From Nitrosospira sp. (lineage in GTDB: Bacteria > Pseudomonadota > Gammaproteobacteria > Burkholderiales > Nitrosomonadaceae), in the NCBI GenBank assembly GCA_026399575.1, contig JAPLQS010000059.1:25443-89442 (forward strand): 64,000 nt of DNA. Direction: 5' to 3'. Below, piece by piece: positions 2,382-58,521 of the stretch. A program made the position numbers and the translations under genes. Each line of letters opens with the position of its first letter. The stretch's first letter is position 1. The notes under the pieces are model-generated. The model was not told where the DNA came from and searched no databases. It was given only the letters and a program-made list of their open reading frames with translations.

Positions 2382-5300
2382 ATGACAGACGACAACGAAA
2401 TTCCACCAGAACCCGATCATGATGAAGTTCTGGACAAGCTCGATGCGTTGCTGAGCAAACACCAGGGCAAGCCCGCGGTAGTGACTGAGCCGGCAGTGGA
2501 GGACAAGGTGATAGCTGTTCCGGTTCTCACCCAGGTCTTCGACGCCATGCTGGAGCAAACCATATCTCCAGTAACCGGTGACATCCCGACCCTCACGGAA
2601 GTAGTATTTCTCCCTACAGCATCCCAACCCGAGACCACACCACCGCTACGACAGATTGTGGATGCTGCGCTGAAGGAAACGGGGATAGAGCTGGATAACA
2701 CGGCACAAGCAGCGCTGGTTCAGGCGCTGGAACGTCATTTACAAGAATCCATGGTTGCACCCGACTCGAATCGTGCTGAAAACTATAATTCCGGCACAGA
2801 CGCTGACTTCTCGCAGAGTGTATCTCAACCAGCCGTGACGCCGGCACCTGCGCCTTCCTCTATAATGACTGACTTTCCAGCACCAGCAGATTCAAACCCG
2901 ATCTCCATGGACCTCGCAAAAAGTTTTGATCCTCAACCTATCGAAAACCACTGGTATTCCATCTGGGACTCCGCCGGTTATTTCAAACCCATAGCGGCTG
3001 AAGGGATTGCTGCACCAGCGCCCGCCTACTGCATCATGCTGCCGCCGCCCAACGTTACCGGCACACTGCACATGGGGCATGCGTTCCAGCATACGCTGAT
3101 GGACGCGCTCTCGCGCTACCACCGCATGCTCGGCGACAACACTTTATGGCAAGCGGGAACCGACCACGCCGGCATCGCCACCCAGATCGTGGTGGAGCGA
3201 CAACTGGATCAGCAGAACATCAACCGCCGTGACCTGGGACGCGAGGAATTCCTCAAGCGCGTGTGGCAGTGGAAAGAGGAATCCGGCTCCACCATCACCC
3301 GCCAGATGCGGCGACTGGGTGCTTCCTGCGACTGGTCACGCGAGCGTTTCACCATGGACGAAGGCCTGTCCCGCGCCGTCACCGAAGTGTTCGTACGGCT
3401 TTATCGCGAAGGAGCGATCTACCGCGGCAAGCGGTTGGTGAACTGGGATCCGGTGCTGCAAACTGCGGTATCCGATCTGGAAGTGGCATCAACCGAAGAA
3501 GACGGCTCTCTCTGGCATATCCGCTACCCGCTGGCCGAACCGGATCTGCAAAATGGCTTGACCTGTCTTGTCGTTGCCACCACCCGCCCCGAAACCATGC
3601 TGGGGGATATGGCGGTTGCCGTGCATCCGGATGACCTGCGCTACCGCCACCTGATCGGTCGCGCTGTGCGCCTGCCGTTATCGGCCAGCACCCCTGCGGC
3701 CTGGCACAGCATTCCGATCATCGCCGACACCTATGTGGACCCGAAATTCGGCACCGGCTGCGTGAAAATCACCCCGGCACACGATTTCAACGACTACCAG
3801 ATGGGCCTGCGGCACAAGCTGGTTCCACTCAATATTCTCACGCTGGATGGGAAGATAAATGATCACGCACCGGTTGAGTATCAAGGCATGGATCGGTTTG
3901 CGGCGCGCACCAAAATCATCACCGACCTCGGCGCACTGGAGTTGCTGGCTGAGATCAAGCCACACAAACTGATGGTGCCGCGCGGTGACCGCACTCATGC
4001 AGTGATCGAACCGATGCTCACTGACCAGTGGTACGTGGCGATGGAGGGTCTGGCCAAACGCGGACTGGAAGTGGTGGCGAGCGGCGAGGTGAAATTCGTC
4101 CCGGAAAACTGGAGTCACGTTTATAACCAGTGGCTGGAAAACATCCAGGACTGGTGCATCTCGCGCCAATTATGGTGGGGGCACCGCATCCCGGCATGGT
4201 ATGACGAGAGTGGCAGAATTTACGTTGCCCACAGCCTGGAGGAAGCACAACAGCAAGCTGGCGAGCGCAAGCTCATGCAGGATGAAGACGTACTCGATAC
4301 CTGGTTTTCTTCCGCATTGTGGCCGTTCTCGACGCTGGGCTGGCCGGAAGAGACGCCGGAACTCAAGACTTTCCTGCCGACCTCGGTGCTGGTTACTGGC
4401 TTCGACATCATCTTCTTCTGGGTGGCGCGCATGGTGATGATGTCGCTGCATTTCACCGGCAAAGTGCCTTTCCGCGAAGTCTATGTGACCGGCCTGATCC
4501 GCGATTCGGAAGGCCACAAGATGAGCAAGTCTAAAGGCAACGTGCTGGACCCGCTGGATCTCATCGATGGCATCGCGCTGCCGGATCTGATCGCCAAGCG
4601 CACCACCGGATTGATGAATCCCGCGCAAGCCGAGTCGATCGAAAAAATCACCCGCAAGCATTTCCCAGAAGGCATTCCCGCATTCGGCACTGATGCATTG
4701 CGCTTCACTTTCGCCAGCCTCGCCTCGCATGGCCGCGACATCAAATTCGATATGCAGCGCTGTGAAGGCTACCGCAATTTCTGCAACAAGCTGTGGAATG
4801 CCACACGCTATGTACTGATGAATTGCGAAGGCAAAGATACGGCTCTGGATGCGAGTTCGGCCAGTGAACTGCCGCTGGAGCTCTCCGATGCCGACCGCTG
4901 GATCATCGGCCGCTTGCAGCAGGCGGAAAGTGCGGTGGCGCAGGCATTTCACGATTACCGCTTCGATACCGCAGCACGCGAAATCTATGAATTCGTCTGG
5001 GACGAATATTGCGACTGGTACCTGGAACTTGCCAAGGTACAACTGACCGGCAGCAGCGACGCCGTGCAGCGCGCCACCCGCCACACCCTGGTACGGGTGC
5101 TGGAAACCACGCTGCGGCTGGCCCATCCCATCATTCCGTTCATCACCGAAGAGTTGTGGCAAAAAATTGCGCCGCTGGCGGGCAAGCAAGGTGCAAGCAT
5201 CATGCTCCAGCCCTACCCCCATGCCGATGCAGCGCGCATTGACGAGAATGCCAGCCAGCGTATCGCCGCACTCAAGGAAATAATCAACGCCTGCCGTACC

Positions 5301-5705
5301 CTGCGCAGCGAAATGAACCTGTCGCCAGCGGCAAGAGTCCCGCTGCTGGTGGCGGGAGATCAGCAGATACTGACTGACTTCTCTCCTTACTTAATGGCGC
5401 TGGCCAAATTATCCGGGGTGGAAATCATGCAGGATAAACTGCCCGATGCCGATGCGCCGGTAGCGATCGTTGGCGAATTCAGATTGATGCTGAAAATCGA
5501 GGTGGATGTGGTCGCTGAACGCGAGCGTCTGGCCAAGGAAATTGCCCGCATCGGAAACGAAATGACCAAGGCCGAAATCAAGCTTGCCAATCCCAGCTTC
5601 GTCGAACGCGCCCCGGCCAAGGTAGTGGAGCAGGAAAAAGAACGTCTCGCCAATTTTGCCGCGACGCTGGAGAAGCTGCAGGAACAGTTGCGGAAACTGG
5701 GTTGA
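2382..5705 (+). CDS. valS: Valyl-tRNA synthetase with unusual in-frame N-terminal extension
   Basis: A class I synthetase that charges tRNA-Val. The conventional protein starts at the ATG at 2907 ([13 protein letters not shown]; 932 residues). From there HMGH (HIGH box) is near residue 55, KMSKSKGN near residue 538, and a coiled-coil arm with heptads of E/K/R closes the protein. The frame is open without a stop from an ATG at 2382, adding about 175 residues rich in Pro, Thr and Glu, with two related motifs VPVLTQVF and IPTLTEVV. These resemble short hypothetical proteins (DUF2486-like, from memory) near valS in other betaproteobacteria. Internal ATGs at 2865 and 2907 are alternative starts, and two TATAAT hexamers (2784-2789, 2861-2866) could be internal promoters. 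Synthetase identity is sure; the true start is not. Confidence 0.92.
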
Positions 5706-5926
5706 GCAGCTCTTTAAGTTGCGATGGCCTATTCCCGACATAATTGAGACCTTCGGTGCTATGCACATTTGAATAACTGCTAATCTGGAACTGAGAAATT
5801 TCAATGAAAGCGGGCAAAGTTCAGAACTAGACATACTGGACGTGCAATCGTCTGATCATCGTTCCGCTGGCATAAATAGCCAATTTTCAACCGGCGGCAA
5901 TATCCGCCCGTTCCGCACAGGGTAAA

Positions 5927-7258
5927 ATGCCCTTGATGAACCAGCCAACCCGTAACCCAAATCCGACGTTGCCACCTGACGACCCGCAACGTGAAGTGCT
6001 GCACAACGAGGTGCACGCTCGTCCGGCGGCACGCATTCGCCTGCCGGCGCTTGTAGTTTTCATTGCCGTGCTAAATGATGGCGTCAGCCGTGAAGCGGAA
6101 TGCCAACACTTGAATCGCCTGCCTGGACAGGGAAAGTTAACGCCTACCGATCTGCAAGAGAACTTCCTGCGTCTGCGTTTCGCGGATCACACGCTGAAGT
6201 GGGAACGCCATAGCGAATTTACCCGTTACTCGCTAGTGCAGGCACTCCCACCACATGCATCGCTGGATGCAACCAATCCTGAACTGCTCTCTTCATTATC
6301 ACTGGATGCCGCCTGGCTACGAGCCATTCCTGGCCGAACTGTAGCAGCCATCAAGCTCGTGATGCTGGCCGAGAACTTGGCGAATCCGGAAATCTTGCTG
6401 GATCGTGCGCACCACTGGTTCGGCGACCATGCTGTGGTGGCATCAATGATGGGGCATGGCCATTCGATCGTTGTCACTGACTTCCGCTTGCGGGACAGCG
6501 GTTTTGAACGCATGTTGGTGCTGGCCCCAGCTGATACTAGCGAGACCCGCGCAGGACGGATCTCGTCACGGCTCCTGGAGTTGGAAACATATCGCCTGAT
6601 GGCATTGCGTGGTCTGCCGGTTGCCAAAGCACTTGGACCGATGCTGACCGAATCCGAGGCCGTGCTGTCAACCATCACCGCACGCCTTGAAGGTAAACAC
6701 GATAGCGACCAAGATCTGCTGGACACACTGGTAGCGTTAGCGGCGCGGGTGGAGCGGGTGACTGCCGAACACATGTATCGCTTTTCTGCCACGCAGGCTT
6801 ACGATGCGCTGGTACTCCAACGCATCGCTGAGCTGCGCGAAAAACCTATCCCCGGCACGCAAACAGTAGGCGAGTTCATGCAGCGCCGGTTGTCTCCGGC
6901 TATCGCCACGGTGGCGGCCACAGCGCAGCGGCTAGCATCGCTGTCGCAGCGCATCGAACGCGCCGGCGGGCTGCTACGCACGCGCGTGGACATCGCCACA
7001 GAGGCGCAGAACCAACAGTTGCTGGCTAAGCTGACACGTGGGCAGGAACTGCAGCTACGCCTGCAGAAAACGGTGGAAGGGCTTTCGATCGCGGCGATCT
7101 CGTACTACGTGATCAGCCTTGTGCTTTACGCGGGGAAGGCGGCTAATGCAGCAGGATTACCGATCAACCCGGAAATTGCTGCGGGTGCGATGATCCCGGT
7201 GGTATTGTGGGGCGTGGCGTGGTTGACGCGGCGGATTCAGAGACGCTTTCAAGCCTGA
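5927..7258 (+). CDS. DUF3422 family membrane protein
   Basis: A 443-residue protein of unknown function. After a Pro-rich start comes REVLHNEVHARPAARIRLPA, the hallmark opening of DUF3422 proteins; the middle is soluble and helical, with EAQNQQLLAKLTRGQELQLR as a probable coiled coil. Two hydrophobic segments near residues 385-400 and 412-430 are separated by a short loop, ending in basic TRRIQRRFQA, so the bulk probably faces the cytoplasm. The start at 5927 follows an AGGG; the ATG at 5936 is equally possible. It stands alone, convergent with the operon to its right. Confidence 0.8.
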   Translation: MPLMNQPTRNPNPTLPPDDPQREVLHNEVHARPAARIRLPALVVFIAVLNDGVSREAECQHLNRLPGQGKLTPTDLQENFLRLRFADHTLKWERHSEFTRYSLVQALPPHASLDATNPELLSSLSLDAAWLRAIPGRTVAAIKLVMLAENLANPEILLDRAHHWFGDHAVVASMMGHGHSIVVTDFRLRDSGFERMLVLAPADTSETRAGRISSRLLELETYRLMALRGLPVAKALGPMLTESEAVLSTITARLEGKHDSDQDLLDTLVALAARVERVTAEHMYRFSATQAYDALVLQRIAELREKPIPGTQTVGEFMQRRLSPAIATVAATAQRLASLSQRIERAGGLLRTRVDIATEAQNQQLLAKLTRGQELQLRLQKTVEGLSIAAISYYVISLVLYAGKAANAAGLPINPEIAAGAMIPVVLWGVAWLTRRIQRRFQA

Positions 7259-7517
7259 GCATGGAGTGTCTCCCAGTCGACTGTCGTGTATGTGTGAAGG
7301 CGGTTTCTGAGCTGAAGTCTGACCGTCTCTTCTTGGCACATTGGTTTTACACCGTTTCCACGGACTCTTAATTAAGAGTGGGTTGATGAATCTTATCACT
7401 GTTTAGTGGCTGCTTTGGAGCAGATGCTCAACCGTCTCTTCCTGGCACCAAGCTGACATTGGTAAAAACCGGAAATGGCCGCTTCAAGCAGTCGCAGCAT
7501 CTGTCTGTCCGTTGAAA
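7259..7517. other. Intergenic region with a palindrome and an 18-bp direct repeat
   Basis: This gap lies between two convergent transcripts. It has a perfect 16-bp palindrome (7364-7379, ACTCTTAATTAAGAGT) and two near-identical 18-mers, ACCGTCTCTTCTTGGCAC at 7322-7339 and the same with one change at 7431-7448. No ORF with a ribosome site was seen. The palindrome could end transcription from either side, but there is no adjacent T run. Confidence 0.4.
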
Positions 7518-53588: not shown

Positions 53589-54701
53589 TCAGGCCTGTAC
53601 CAGAATTCTCAGCATCCTGCGCAATGGTTCTGCTGCGCCCCATAGCAACTGATCCCCCACCGTGAATGCGGACAAATACTCCTTGCCCATGGCGAGTTTG
53701 CGCAACCGCCCCACCGGTATATTGAGTGTTCCCGTAACTGCGGCTGGCGTCAACTCCTTCAAAGTGCTCTCGCGGTCATTGGGAACAACCCGCACCCAAC
53801 TATTCGCTGCCGCAAGAATGTCTTCAATCTCATCCAGCGGAACATCCTTTTTCAATTTGATGGTCAACGCCTGGCTATGGCAGCGCATGGCACCAACACG
53901 AACGCAGATACCATCCACCGGGATTGCCTGATCACTGCGTCCCAGAATTTTGTTGGTCTCGGACTGGCCTTTCCATTCCTCCCGGGTCTGGCCATTGCCA
54001 AGATCGCGGTCTATCCACGGAATCAGACTGCCCGCCAGCGGCACACCAAAATTCGCTATGGGGAATTTATCGTCACGCAGCGTCCCCGCCACTTCCCGGT
54101 CGATGTCGAGTATGCTCGCAGCCGGGTCATCCAGCATGGTCTTCGCTACCCGATGAGCCTCACCCATCTGTTGCAGCAATTCACGCATGTTTTGTGCACC
54201 CGCACCGGAAGCTGCCTGATAAGTCATGGCACTCATCCATTCCACCAGATCTTCTTCGAACAATCCACCCATCGCCATCAGCATCAGGCTCACGGTGCAA
54301 TTGCCGCCGATGAAATCTTTTCCGCCATCATGCAGCGCCTGTTCGATGACCGGCAGATTGATCGGGTCGAGTATGATTACGGCATCTTTGCCCATGCGCA
54401 ATGTTGAAGCTGCATCAATCCAGTAACCTTGCCAGCCTGCCTGACGCAGCTTGTCAAATACCGCAGTGGTATAGTCGCCTCCCTGGCAGGAAATGATAAT
54501 ATCCATCGCCTTGAGTTCGTCGATATTGTATGCATCCCTGAGCGGCGGCGTTTCTCTGCCGATATCCGGACCCTGGCCGCCCTTTTGCGAGGTGGTGAAA
54601 AACACCGGTTCCACCAGCGCAAAATCATTTTCTTCCCGCATGCGCTGCATCAGCACCGAACCCACCATGCCGCGCCAGCCAACAAATCCCACTCGTTTCA
54701 T
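53589..54701 (-). CDS. asd: Aspartate-semialdehyde dehydrogenase
   Basis: A 370-residue enzyme that reduces aspartyl phosphate, leading to Lys, Thr, Met and diaminopimelate. The NADP loop is [18 protein letters not shown], the catalytic Cys is in [17 protein letters not shown], and [17 protein letters not shown] holds the catalytic His. Sequence and length fit the long proteobacterial form. It starts 19 bp after leuB, as in relatives (leuB-asd). Confidence 0.95.
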
Positions 54702-54720: not shown

Positions 54721-55644
54721 CTATAAATTCGCCAATACCGCATTGCCCATTCCAGCGGTGCCGACTTTTTTCATCCCTGACTCATAAATATCGCCGGTGC
54801 GATAACCTTGCGCCAGCACTTTTTTTACTGCCTTCTCAATGCGTGCCGCCGCCGATTCCTGATTGAATGTATAGCGCAGCATCATCGCCACCGACAATAT
54901 CGTTGCCAGCGGATTGGCCACATCCTTGCCGGCAATATCCGGAGCTGAGCCATGTATCGGTTCATACAGTCCTTTGTTCTTGTCATCCAGTGATGCCGAT
55001 GGCAGCATACCGATGGAACCGGTCAGCATTGACGCTTCATCCGACAGGATATCGCCGAACATGTTGCCCGTCACCATTACGTCGAATTGTCTGGGATTGC
55101 GTACCAACTGCATCGCCGCATTATCCACCAGCATGTGCGTAATTCTGCGTATCTCCGCTTCGCTATAAATCATGGTATTGAAACCAACGCGCTGACCATC
55201 GCGCTGCTCGATGCCACGCGGCTCGCCGAAATAAATATCACCGGTCAACTCGCGCACAATCAGAATATCCAGCCCTGCGACCACTTCGGGTTTCAGCGTC
55301 GAAGCGTTGGCAAGCTCGGGGTAAAGCACCGCTGGACGAAGATTAGCGAATAGATTCAAAGCCTTGCGGATATCAAGCAAGCCCCGTTCCGGACGCTGCG
55401 CGCGCGGCAGCGTGTCATACTGCGGACCACCCACCGCGCCCAGCAGTACGGCATCGGCGGCGGCAACCAGCTTGTGCGTCACCTCCGGAAATGGTTCCCC
55501 GGTCGCATCTACCGCGCATCCACCCAGTAAACCCGGTTCCAATTCAAATTTCAGCCCGTCACTTCTCAGCGCTTCCAGCACCTGCACCGCTTGGGCGACG
55601 ATTTCAGGACCGATGCCGTCACCGGCTAGAACTGCAATTTTCAT
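54721..55644 (-). CDS. leuB: 3-isopropylmalate dehydrogenase with internal deletion
   Basis: A leucine-pathway oxidative decarboxylase. Normal landmarks are present: [32 protein letters not shown] (substrate Arg), [31 protein letters not shown] and [15 protein letters not shown]. The protein is 307 residues, about 49 short of the usual 355. After YSEAEIRRI (residue 168) the chain jumps to [13 protein letters not shown], which in complete enzymes comes after the segment carrying SVDKANVL. The catalytic Lys and its Asn neighbour are therefore missing, while the frame is kept. The enzyme is probably inactive unless a second leuB exists or the sequence is wrong. Confidence 0.9.
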
Positions 55645-55677: not shown

Positions 55678-56316
55678 TTATGCGAATAACCACGGCTGTT
55701 CCGTACGCCGCTTTTCTTCGAATACCTTGATCTTGTCCGCATCCTGCAACGTCAGACCAATTTCATCCAAGCCGTTCAGCAGGCAATGCTTGCGGAACGG
55801 GTCAACATCGAAGGTACAGATTTCGCCACTGGGCGTAGTCACCGTCTGCTCCTCCAGATTTACTGTCAGGCAATAACCTTCGGTTGAGCTTACTTCGTGG
55901 AATATCCGATCAACAATGCTTGTATCAAGCACGATGGGCAACAGGCCGATCTTGAAGCAGTTGCTGAAAAAGATATCGGCGAAACTGGGGGCGATGATCA
56001 CCCGGAAACCATAATCCTGCAAAGCCCAGGGCGCATGCTCCCGGCTCGAACCACAGCCGAAATTTGCGCGCGCAAGTAATATTTGCGCGCCACGATAACG
56101 CAGCTGATTAAGGATGAAGTCCGGGTTGAGCCTGCGTTGGGTCACGTCCATCCCCGGCTCACCGTGATCCAGATAACGCCACTCGTCAAACAGATTCTGA
56201 CCGAAGCCGGAACGTTTGATGGATTTTAGAAACTGCTTGGGAATAATGGCATCGGTATCGATGTTAGCGCGGTCCAGCGGCGCCACCAGCCCCTTGCAGG
56301 AATGAAATTTTTCCAC
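55678..56316 (-). CDS. leuD: 3-isopropylmalate dehydratase small subunit
   Basis: A 212-residue swivel-domain subunit that pairs with LeuC to isomerise isopropylmalate. Diagnostic stretches are [40 protein letters not shown] and [17 protein letters not shown]. It lies 33 bp before leuB and is separated from leuC by a small entericidin-like gene. Confidence 0.95.
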
Positions 56317-56501: not shown

Positions 56502-57911
56502 TTAATATATTTCCCGCACATCCACAAAATGTCCCGCCACTGCTGCTGCGGCCGCCATCACCGGACTCACCAGGTGAGTACGTCCGCCCGGTCCCTGCCT
56601 GCCCTCAAAATTGCGGTTGGACGTAGAAGCGCAGCGCTCCCCTGGCGCCAGTCGATCATCATTCATCGCCAGACACATGGAACAGCCCGGTTCACGCCAT
56701 TCAAAACCGGCATCACGGAATATCTTGTCGAGTCCTTCCTGCTCCGCTTGATGCTTCACCAGACCGGAACCCGGCACCACCATGGCAAGCTTGATGTTTG
56801 CGGCAATATGCCTGCCCTTCACCACTTCTGCCGCCGCCCGCAAGTCTTCAATACGCGAGTTGGTGCAGGAGCCAATGAATATCTTATCCAGGCGAATTTT
56901 ACTGATCGGCATATTGGGAGTCAGTCCCATGTATTTGAGCGCACGCTCCATGTCATGGCGCTTCACTACATCGTCAATCTGCGAGGGATCGGGCACTCTG
57001 CCGTCAACCGTTGTCACCATCTCGGGTGAAGTTCCCCAGGTTACCTGCGGTTTAACTTGCGCCGCATCCAGCCTTACCACCTGCTCGAAGGTTGCCCCCT
57101 CGTCACTTTTGAGAGTGCGCCAATAAGCGACCGCTTTCTCCCATAATTCGCCTTTTGGTGCAAAAGGGCGTCCCTTAATGTAATCGATGGTGATGTCATC
57201 CACCGCTATCATGCCGGCGCGCGCCCCCGCCTCGATCGCCATATTGCACAGTGTCATGCGCGCTTCCATGGAAAGCGCGCGAATGGCACTGCCGGCAAAT
57301 TCAATGGCATAGCCGGTACCACCTGCGGTACCGATCTTACCGATAACAGCAAGTGCAATGTCCTTGGCAGTGACGCCATGGCCGAGCTGGCCTTCAACCA
57401 GAACCTGCATTGCCTTGGCTTTTTTTAGTAGCAGACATTGGGTCGCAAGCGCATGTTCCACTTCCGAGGTACCAATACCGAAAGCGAGACAGGCGAATGC
57501 ACCATGCGTGCTGGTATGCGAATCTCCGCATACTACCGTCATACCGGGCAGTGTGGCGCCCTGCTCCGGACCGATTACGTGAACGATCCCTTGGCGCAGA
57601 TCGTTCATTTTGAATTCGGTGATACCCAGATCTGCGCAATTCTGGTCGAGAGTCTCCACTTGCAGACGCGATATCGGGTCGCTGATACCGTGGCTGCGCT
57701 CGGTGGTGGGCACATTGTGGTCGGCTACCGCAAGAATTGAGTCCAGGCGCCAAGGCTTGCGTCCAGCCAGCCTCAATCCCTCAAACGCCTGTGGACTAGT
57801 AACTTCATGCACCAGGTGGCGGTCGATGTAGAGCAGTGCCATCCCATCCGGCTTATCGGATTCTTCATGCACCACATGGCTTTGCCAGAGTTTGTCGTAA
57901 AGGGTCTGCAT
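56502..57911 (-). CDS. leuC: 3-isopropylmalate dehydratase large subunit
   Basis: A 469-residue aconitase-family subunit with a 4Fe-4S cluster. Its cysteines are visible in [20 protein letters not shown] and [20 protein letters not shown]; the early DHNVPTTER and [20 protein letters not shown] are signatures of LeuC. It is the first gene of the leuC-ecn-leuD-leuB-asd run. A GATAAT on the minus strand (57938-57943) about 27 bp upstream could be its -10 element. Confidence 0.96.
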
Positions 57912-58194: not shown

Positions 58195-58521
58195 TCATTG
58201 CAGCGGTCTATTTTCCAGTCGATCTTTGAGGTGTTGCGTGCGTTCTTTGGTTCTCAAACCAAGACAGCCAAAGGTATCTGCCCCCTCATAAGTACAATCG
58301 ACATTTCTAAACATATTCCACTGCCGCTGAGATTCTCTTAAATTTTCCTTATCTTTCGTGCTCAGCTTCTCTATCAATTGTTTTTGAATATTTTTCAATT
58401 CAGCCTCGGCAGCTTGATACTCCATCACCTTTATGTCTTTAGCATAGATCGAACCTGCCAATGACGATCCTATCAAAATGATAAGAAGTCTAAGCGCGTT
58501 TCCAGAAAGATTTTTTTTCAT
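58195..58521 (-). CDS. LprI-like exported protein (DUF1311)
   Basis: A 108-residue secreted protein. The signal peptide is LRLLIILIGSSLAGSIYA-K. The mature part has EYQAAEAELKNIQKQLIEKL, then LRESQRQWNMFRNVDCTYEG and FGCLGLRTKERTQHLKDRLE; the pattern of W, two Cys and a closing R-x-x-L helix fits DUF1311/LprI lysozyme-inhibitor proteins. AGGAG precedes the ATG. It may protect against host or protist lysozyme, but that is inference. A strong terminator follows. Confidence 0.75.
   Translation of the reverse strand: MKKNLSGNALRLLIILIGSSLAGSIYAKDIKVMEYQAAEAELKNIQKQLIEKLSTKDKENLRESQRQWNMFRNVDCTYEGADTFGCLGLRTKERTQHLKDRLENRPLQ

Follow-up and report, generated by a model that had tools for sequence, protein, structure and literature searches.

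Does the leuB gene of this Nitrosospira genome still encode a working 3-isopropylmalate dehydrogenase, and if a piece of it is missing, was that piece lost in the cells or in the data? The window, by which we mean the whole 64,000-nucleotide stretch that was analysed, carries leuB in the order leuC-leuD-leuB-asd, all on one strand, with the genes around leuB named from their Pfam matches and context:

53589..54701, minus strand: asd-like gene (aspartate-semialdehyde dehydrogenase; name inferred), 370 aa, intact, directly downstream of leuB; PF01118 and PF02774
54721..55644, minus strand: leuB (3-isopropylmalate dehydrogenase), 307 aa, with an internal loss of 46 codons; TIGR00169 matched in two pieces
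55140..55143, minus strand: deletion junction from an in-register comparison of six loci, 138 bp missing, breakpoint ambiguous within TT (55142-55141)
55678..56316, minus strand: leuD-like gene (isopropylmalate isomerase small subunit; name inferred from context), 212 aa, intact; PF00694, Aconitase_C
56502..57911, minus strand: leuC-like gene (isopropylmalate isomerase large subunit; name inferred from context), 469 aa as in the nearest relative, gap-free; PF00330, Aconitase

The missing segment of LeuB

In the nearest relative (G001), the DNA around leuB is 93-95% identical to that of the window. The leuD-like protein aligns with its counterpart there over 212/212 residues without a gap, the asd-like protein is likewise gap-free and of the same length, and the BLASTN alignment breaks at the same place as the junction (55143-55140). 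LeuB is 307 aa long in the window versus 353 aa in close relatives; the loss amounts to 46 codons, or 138 bp, keeps the frame, and corresponds to residues 169-214 of the intact form. A jump of the chain at residue 168 with the frame kept, as the earlier note had described it, is exactly what residues 166-179 of the protein read ([14 protein letters not shown]), with the segment carrying the catalytic lysine gone. The same note was right about an in-frame loss of that segment, while its estimate of about 49 residues (147 bp) comes down to 46 residues and 138 bp against the 353-aa relatives, and the motif that it gave as S-V-D-K-A-N-V-L reads SVDKMNVLE in this group. The distance between the flanks is 46 residues in all 91 loci with printable flanks, which belong to the 102 motif-bearing loci out of 109 fetched from relatives; the seven loci outside the motif-bearing set are intact as well.

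Within SVDKMNVLE lies Lys188 of the intact form, which aligns with position 190 of the 1a05 chain and, in structural alignment rows, with position 232 of Arabidopsis IPMDH2 (chain 3r8w). According to passages of a review, Lys232 takes a proton from a bound water, which then acts as the general base, and Asp292 together with Asp264 of the adjacent monomer apparently sits in the metal site (PMC8468904); 5j34 is, by its title, the structure of the K232M mutant. The lysine motif in its general form, SVDKxNVL, is absent from the window's LeuB and present in 118 of the 119 other homologues among the best 120 of 8000 scored. Outside the gap, the window's LeuB retains Tyr138 and the two aspartates that correspond to Asp264 and Asp292 in the alignment, so that both the tyrosine and the metal aspartates are in place: IYFG stands at 137, VDNAAMQ at 173 and [10 protein letters not shown] at 196, with the catalytic tyrosine presumably the one within IYFG.

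In a model of the intact relative, the lost residues comprise the second half of a helix (162-177), a strand (182-187), a helix (192-206), and the first residues of a further strand (213-218). AlphaFold2 predictions from matched alignments (37 rows deep for the window's LeuB, 36 for the intact relative) gave mean pLDDT/pTM values of 53.1/0.51 and 74.9/0.74, respectively, values to be read in the light of the fact that the method was not made for deletions and that the intact model itself is moderate (74.9). Foldseek TM scores, normalised by query, run from 0.44 to 0.50 at 14.5-17.1 Å rmsd over the 50 listed chains for the window's LeuB and from 0.70 to 0.82 at 4.7-5.7 Å over 50 for the intact form, a comparison that for the same two reasons is supporting evidence only. 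In the prediction, the 307-aa protein does not form the complete two-domain fold, which supports a loss of its stable fold.

Judged by profile score, the gap would pass. The TIGR00169 leuB model scores 421.4 bits against the window's LeuB, above its curated cut-off of 353.2, with the match split into profile positions 1-170 and 215-347 (of 349). Since the broken gene scores so well above the cut-off, an automated annotation pipeline would probably list the step as present.

Two other places in the window differ from G001 in ways of their own. A 108-aa frame at 58195-58521 (minus strand) is 81.5% identical to its counterpart, against 96.7-98.7% for leuC, leuD, leuB and asd nearby. The layout of 5194-7440 is unlike that of G001: 5194-5745 also matches a second place, and at 1e-20 BLASTN aligned nothing in the fetched 100 kb to 5746-7439.

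Relatives, and the search for a replacement

We surveyed 125 genomes of the family with the protein of an intact relative as query. A leuB match was found in 121 of these, in two pieces in the window's genome; of the other 120, 118 match in one piece from residue 1 to at least residue 350, and two lose only the 3' part of the gene (G020, residues 1-255; G085, residues 1-231). All four genomes without a match are 74-83% complete, and every one of the 99 family genomes that are 90% or more complete and no more than 5% contaminated, the window's genome included, has one. The two genes cut at the 3' end lie at G085:C1:2729799-2730491 and G020:C88:1164-1928; G085 is a single-contig genome, 89% complete, in which a frameshift in leuB is possible. 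Among the nine genomes of the genus, the deletion was found in no other than the window's own: six of the remaining eight have leuB, full length in each case, and the two without it are 74% and 80% complete.

Locus by locus, residues 160-230 are spanned in one piece in all 109 fetched leuB loci, a number that includes probable duplicates from the same genome (L004/L032 and L005/L033, for example). Among the best 120 of 8000 scored homologues, 119 are 353-385 aa long and a single one, the window's own, is 307 aa. Any close relative with the same gap should have ranked high among the 8000, which makes the best 120 informative on the deletion; the nine best matches after the window's own (P0002-P0010) are full length and 97.7-98.4% identical over the 307 common residues. 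The earlier note had named active close relatives with the same deletion as the case that would speak against its reading, and no such relative turned up in the 125 family genomes, the nine genus genomes, the 109 loci, or the best 120 of 8000 homologues. With 118 of 120 matching genomes full length, two cut otherwise, and 109/109 loci intact, the disabling change is peculiar to the window, as in a pseudogene.

The window's genome is a 93-contig assembly of 2.09 Mb, estimated to be 95.15% complete with 2.34% contamination. No second leuB was found in these 93 contigs with the window's protein, TIGR00169, PF00180, the intact relative's protein, or the missing 138 bp as queries, in an assembly from which about 5% of the genome may be missing. 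The sole other Iso_dh match is a 419-aa frame resembling isocitrate dehydrogenase. The relative's 138 bp was matched in all four relatives given (G001, G003, G004 and G007), and not in the window's assembly (G000). One leuB per genome is the rule in the family, with a single match at E 1e-60 or better in 117 of the 118 full-length genomes. The only genome of the 125 with two full-length copies at that threshold is G098 (C1:472857-473915 and C9:5873-6931). The earlier note had put the matter as an alternative, the step being lost unless another gene supplies it, or else the gap being an error; that framing holds, and within the assembly its replacement branch came up empty.

Origin of the gap

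At the breakpoints in G001, two exact common bases (TT) are followed by an imperfect match. Exact matches of 2 bp or more occur at 18% of positions in G001's gene, and matches as good as that at the breakpoint (at least 7/10) at 1.2%. In six loci, which probably represent four genomes, as two pairs look identical, the two breakpoint regions of 60 nt have no word longer than 5-7 nt in common. A direct repeat of C-G-C-A-C, suggested earlier from the junction, is possible and weakly supported: a more distantly related locus (L046) has CGCAC on both sides, but the closest relatives carry GCACAC or GCGCAT as the left copy, which is not an exact repeat and leaves, in the nearest one, 2 bp of exact homology within an imperfect repeat. 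Directly after the junction comes the codon ACG, which G001 has in its right-hand copy.

What remains of leuB bears the marks of a gene under selection. Against G001, dN/dS is 0.041 at a dS of 0.175, strong purifying selection; a parsimony count puts 2 nonsynonymous changes and 13 synonymous ones on the window's branch and 2 and 18 on that of G001, with six sites unresolved. None of the remaining residues is rare (<5%) among 111 relatives of 353 aa. By these three measures, no decay was seen elsewhere in leuB, and the relaxed selection that usually marks a pseudogene is not apparent. At 46 aa, the gap in LeuB exceeds every other internal gap, the next being 6 aa, among the ORF pairs of the window and G001 with at least 60% identity and a dN/dS below 0.45, antisense frames included and up to six gaps considered per pair. 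Together with the intact pathway genes (see below), the absence of decay means that the deletion is recent, or is a minority allele, or is an artefact.

We believe that the first of these is the best reading, and give it a probability of about 0.58: the gap would be a recent in-frame deletion that leaves a null allele, fixed or not; the enzyme would be dead, and cells with the allele would likely be leucine auxotrophs. The 138 bp would have been lost spontaneously at the short imperfect repeat, by slipped mispairing or by end-joining at 2 bp, and in cells rather than in the data. Without Lys188, one strand, one helix, and part of a second helix, the enzyme would be inactive. With the frame kept across the deletion and the genes on either side intact, the downstream asd would still be translated. 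In kind, this type of deletion is ordinary.

That leuB is normal and that a chimeric read, a local misassembly, or low-coverage scaffolding skipped 138 bp is possible, if on balance doubtful. The deletion is known from a single 93-contig assembly, no other 307-aa form occurs among the best 120 of 8000 homologues, and the rest of LeuB is strongly constrained with the pathway genes sought otherwise present, all as an artefact would have it. Usual assembler k-mers, however, are far above 5-7 nt, and breakpoint words of that length speak against a simple repeat collapse, there being none longer to mislead an assembler; the loss is exactly in frame, for which the chance is one in three, and the missing 138 bp appears on no other contig. 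We regard it as unlikely, though well worth weighing, that the allele belongs to a minority or a single strain in a mixed population, most of whose cells are intact; this shares its mechanism with the recent null allele, so the confidences of the two overlap. Signs of a mixture do exist. Two contig starts (C11:1-423, L137, and C79:1-423, L138) overlap inversely over the start of ilvE with 10 mismatches in 423 bp (97.6%), as two alleles would, which suggests that the assembly combines more than one strain of a population or holds a contaminant, and an intact leuB allele may accordingly coexist in the population without showing in the assembly. The contamination estimate of 2.34% and the full-length metagenomic LeuB proteins (P0002-P0010), so nearly identical to the window's outside the gap, point the same way. 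Against a minority allele stand the absence of an intact leuB piece from every other contig and the tendency of assemblers to keep the commoner path.

That a dehydrogenase shortened to 307 aa still functions, or has been repurposed, we find hardly credible. The frame is open, purifying selection extends across the remainder, and the protein still has Tyr138 as well as the aspartates that align with Asp264 and Asp292, but the gap takes away the lysine together with the strand, one whole helix, and part of a second, the predicted fold loses confidence (with the lower TM scores over the 50 listed chains each given above), and none of the relatives searched has the same form.

Leucine supply and comparison with known systems

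The rest of the route to leucine appears to be in order. Above their cut-offs are leuA (726 bits, cut-off 599) and ilvC (463 bits, cut-off 226), both on contig C46, and ilvE, with its neighbours on C11 (451 bits, cut-off 246); leuA, leuC, leuD, ilvC, and ilvE all look intact. For uptake, contig C31 has a cluster consisting of a substrate-binding protein, a LivM-like permease, and LivG- and LivF-like ATPases, for which Liv models are the best NCBIfam match, below their curated cut-offs, while the Pfam matches are above theirs. Two further binding proteins resemble UrtA, below its cut-off, and a BrnQ-type carrier was sought in the window's genome and not found. Judging from these similarities, leucine uptake through the Liv-like ABC transporter is possible, and cells with the null allele would take up their leucine, presumably by this cluster. 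Going further, a free-living member of the Nitrosomonadaceae may just have lost leucine synthesis and now live on its neighbours' leucine by way of the Liv-like transporter, the first step of a dependency taken with the other leucine genes intact; so much we consider quite improbable.

Should the deletion prove real and fixed, auxotrophy would have arisen only lately in a family whose good-quality genomes (99/99 searched) all have a leuB match, and dependency would have begun with one step of a pathway that is otherwise intact. Should it not be real, it illustrates how a pathway call based on one assembled genome may err either way.

A literature search on natural leuB deletions or pseudogenes, auxotrophy in the Nitrosomonadaceae, and assembly errors with strain heterogeneity brought up no matching case among titles and the openings of abstracts, a statement about those and not about all that is in print. 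Twelve passages of PMC9239080 contain nothing on leucine synthesis.

Set beside the LeuB family as represented by TIGR00169 and the structures 1a05, 4iwh, and 5j32, the window's LeuB matches on both flanks of the gap and stands in the gene order leuC-leuD-leuB-asd; unlike the family, it is 46 residues short, having lost the catalytic lysine along with one strand, one complete helix, and half of a second. Loss-of-function alleles of leuB are known in leucine auxotrophs, the laboratory leuB markers among them. Like those null alleles, the window's gene is broken within an otherwise intact leucine pathway; unlike them, it is broken by an in-frame internal deletion, and the case is known here from an assembled environmental genome alone.
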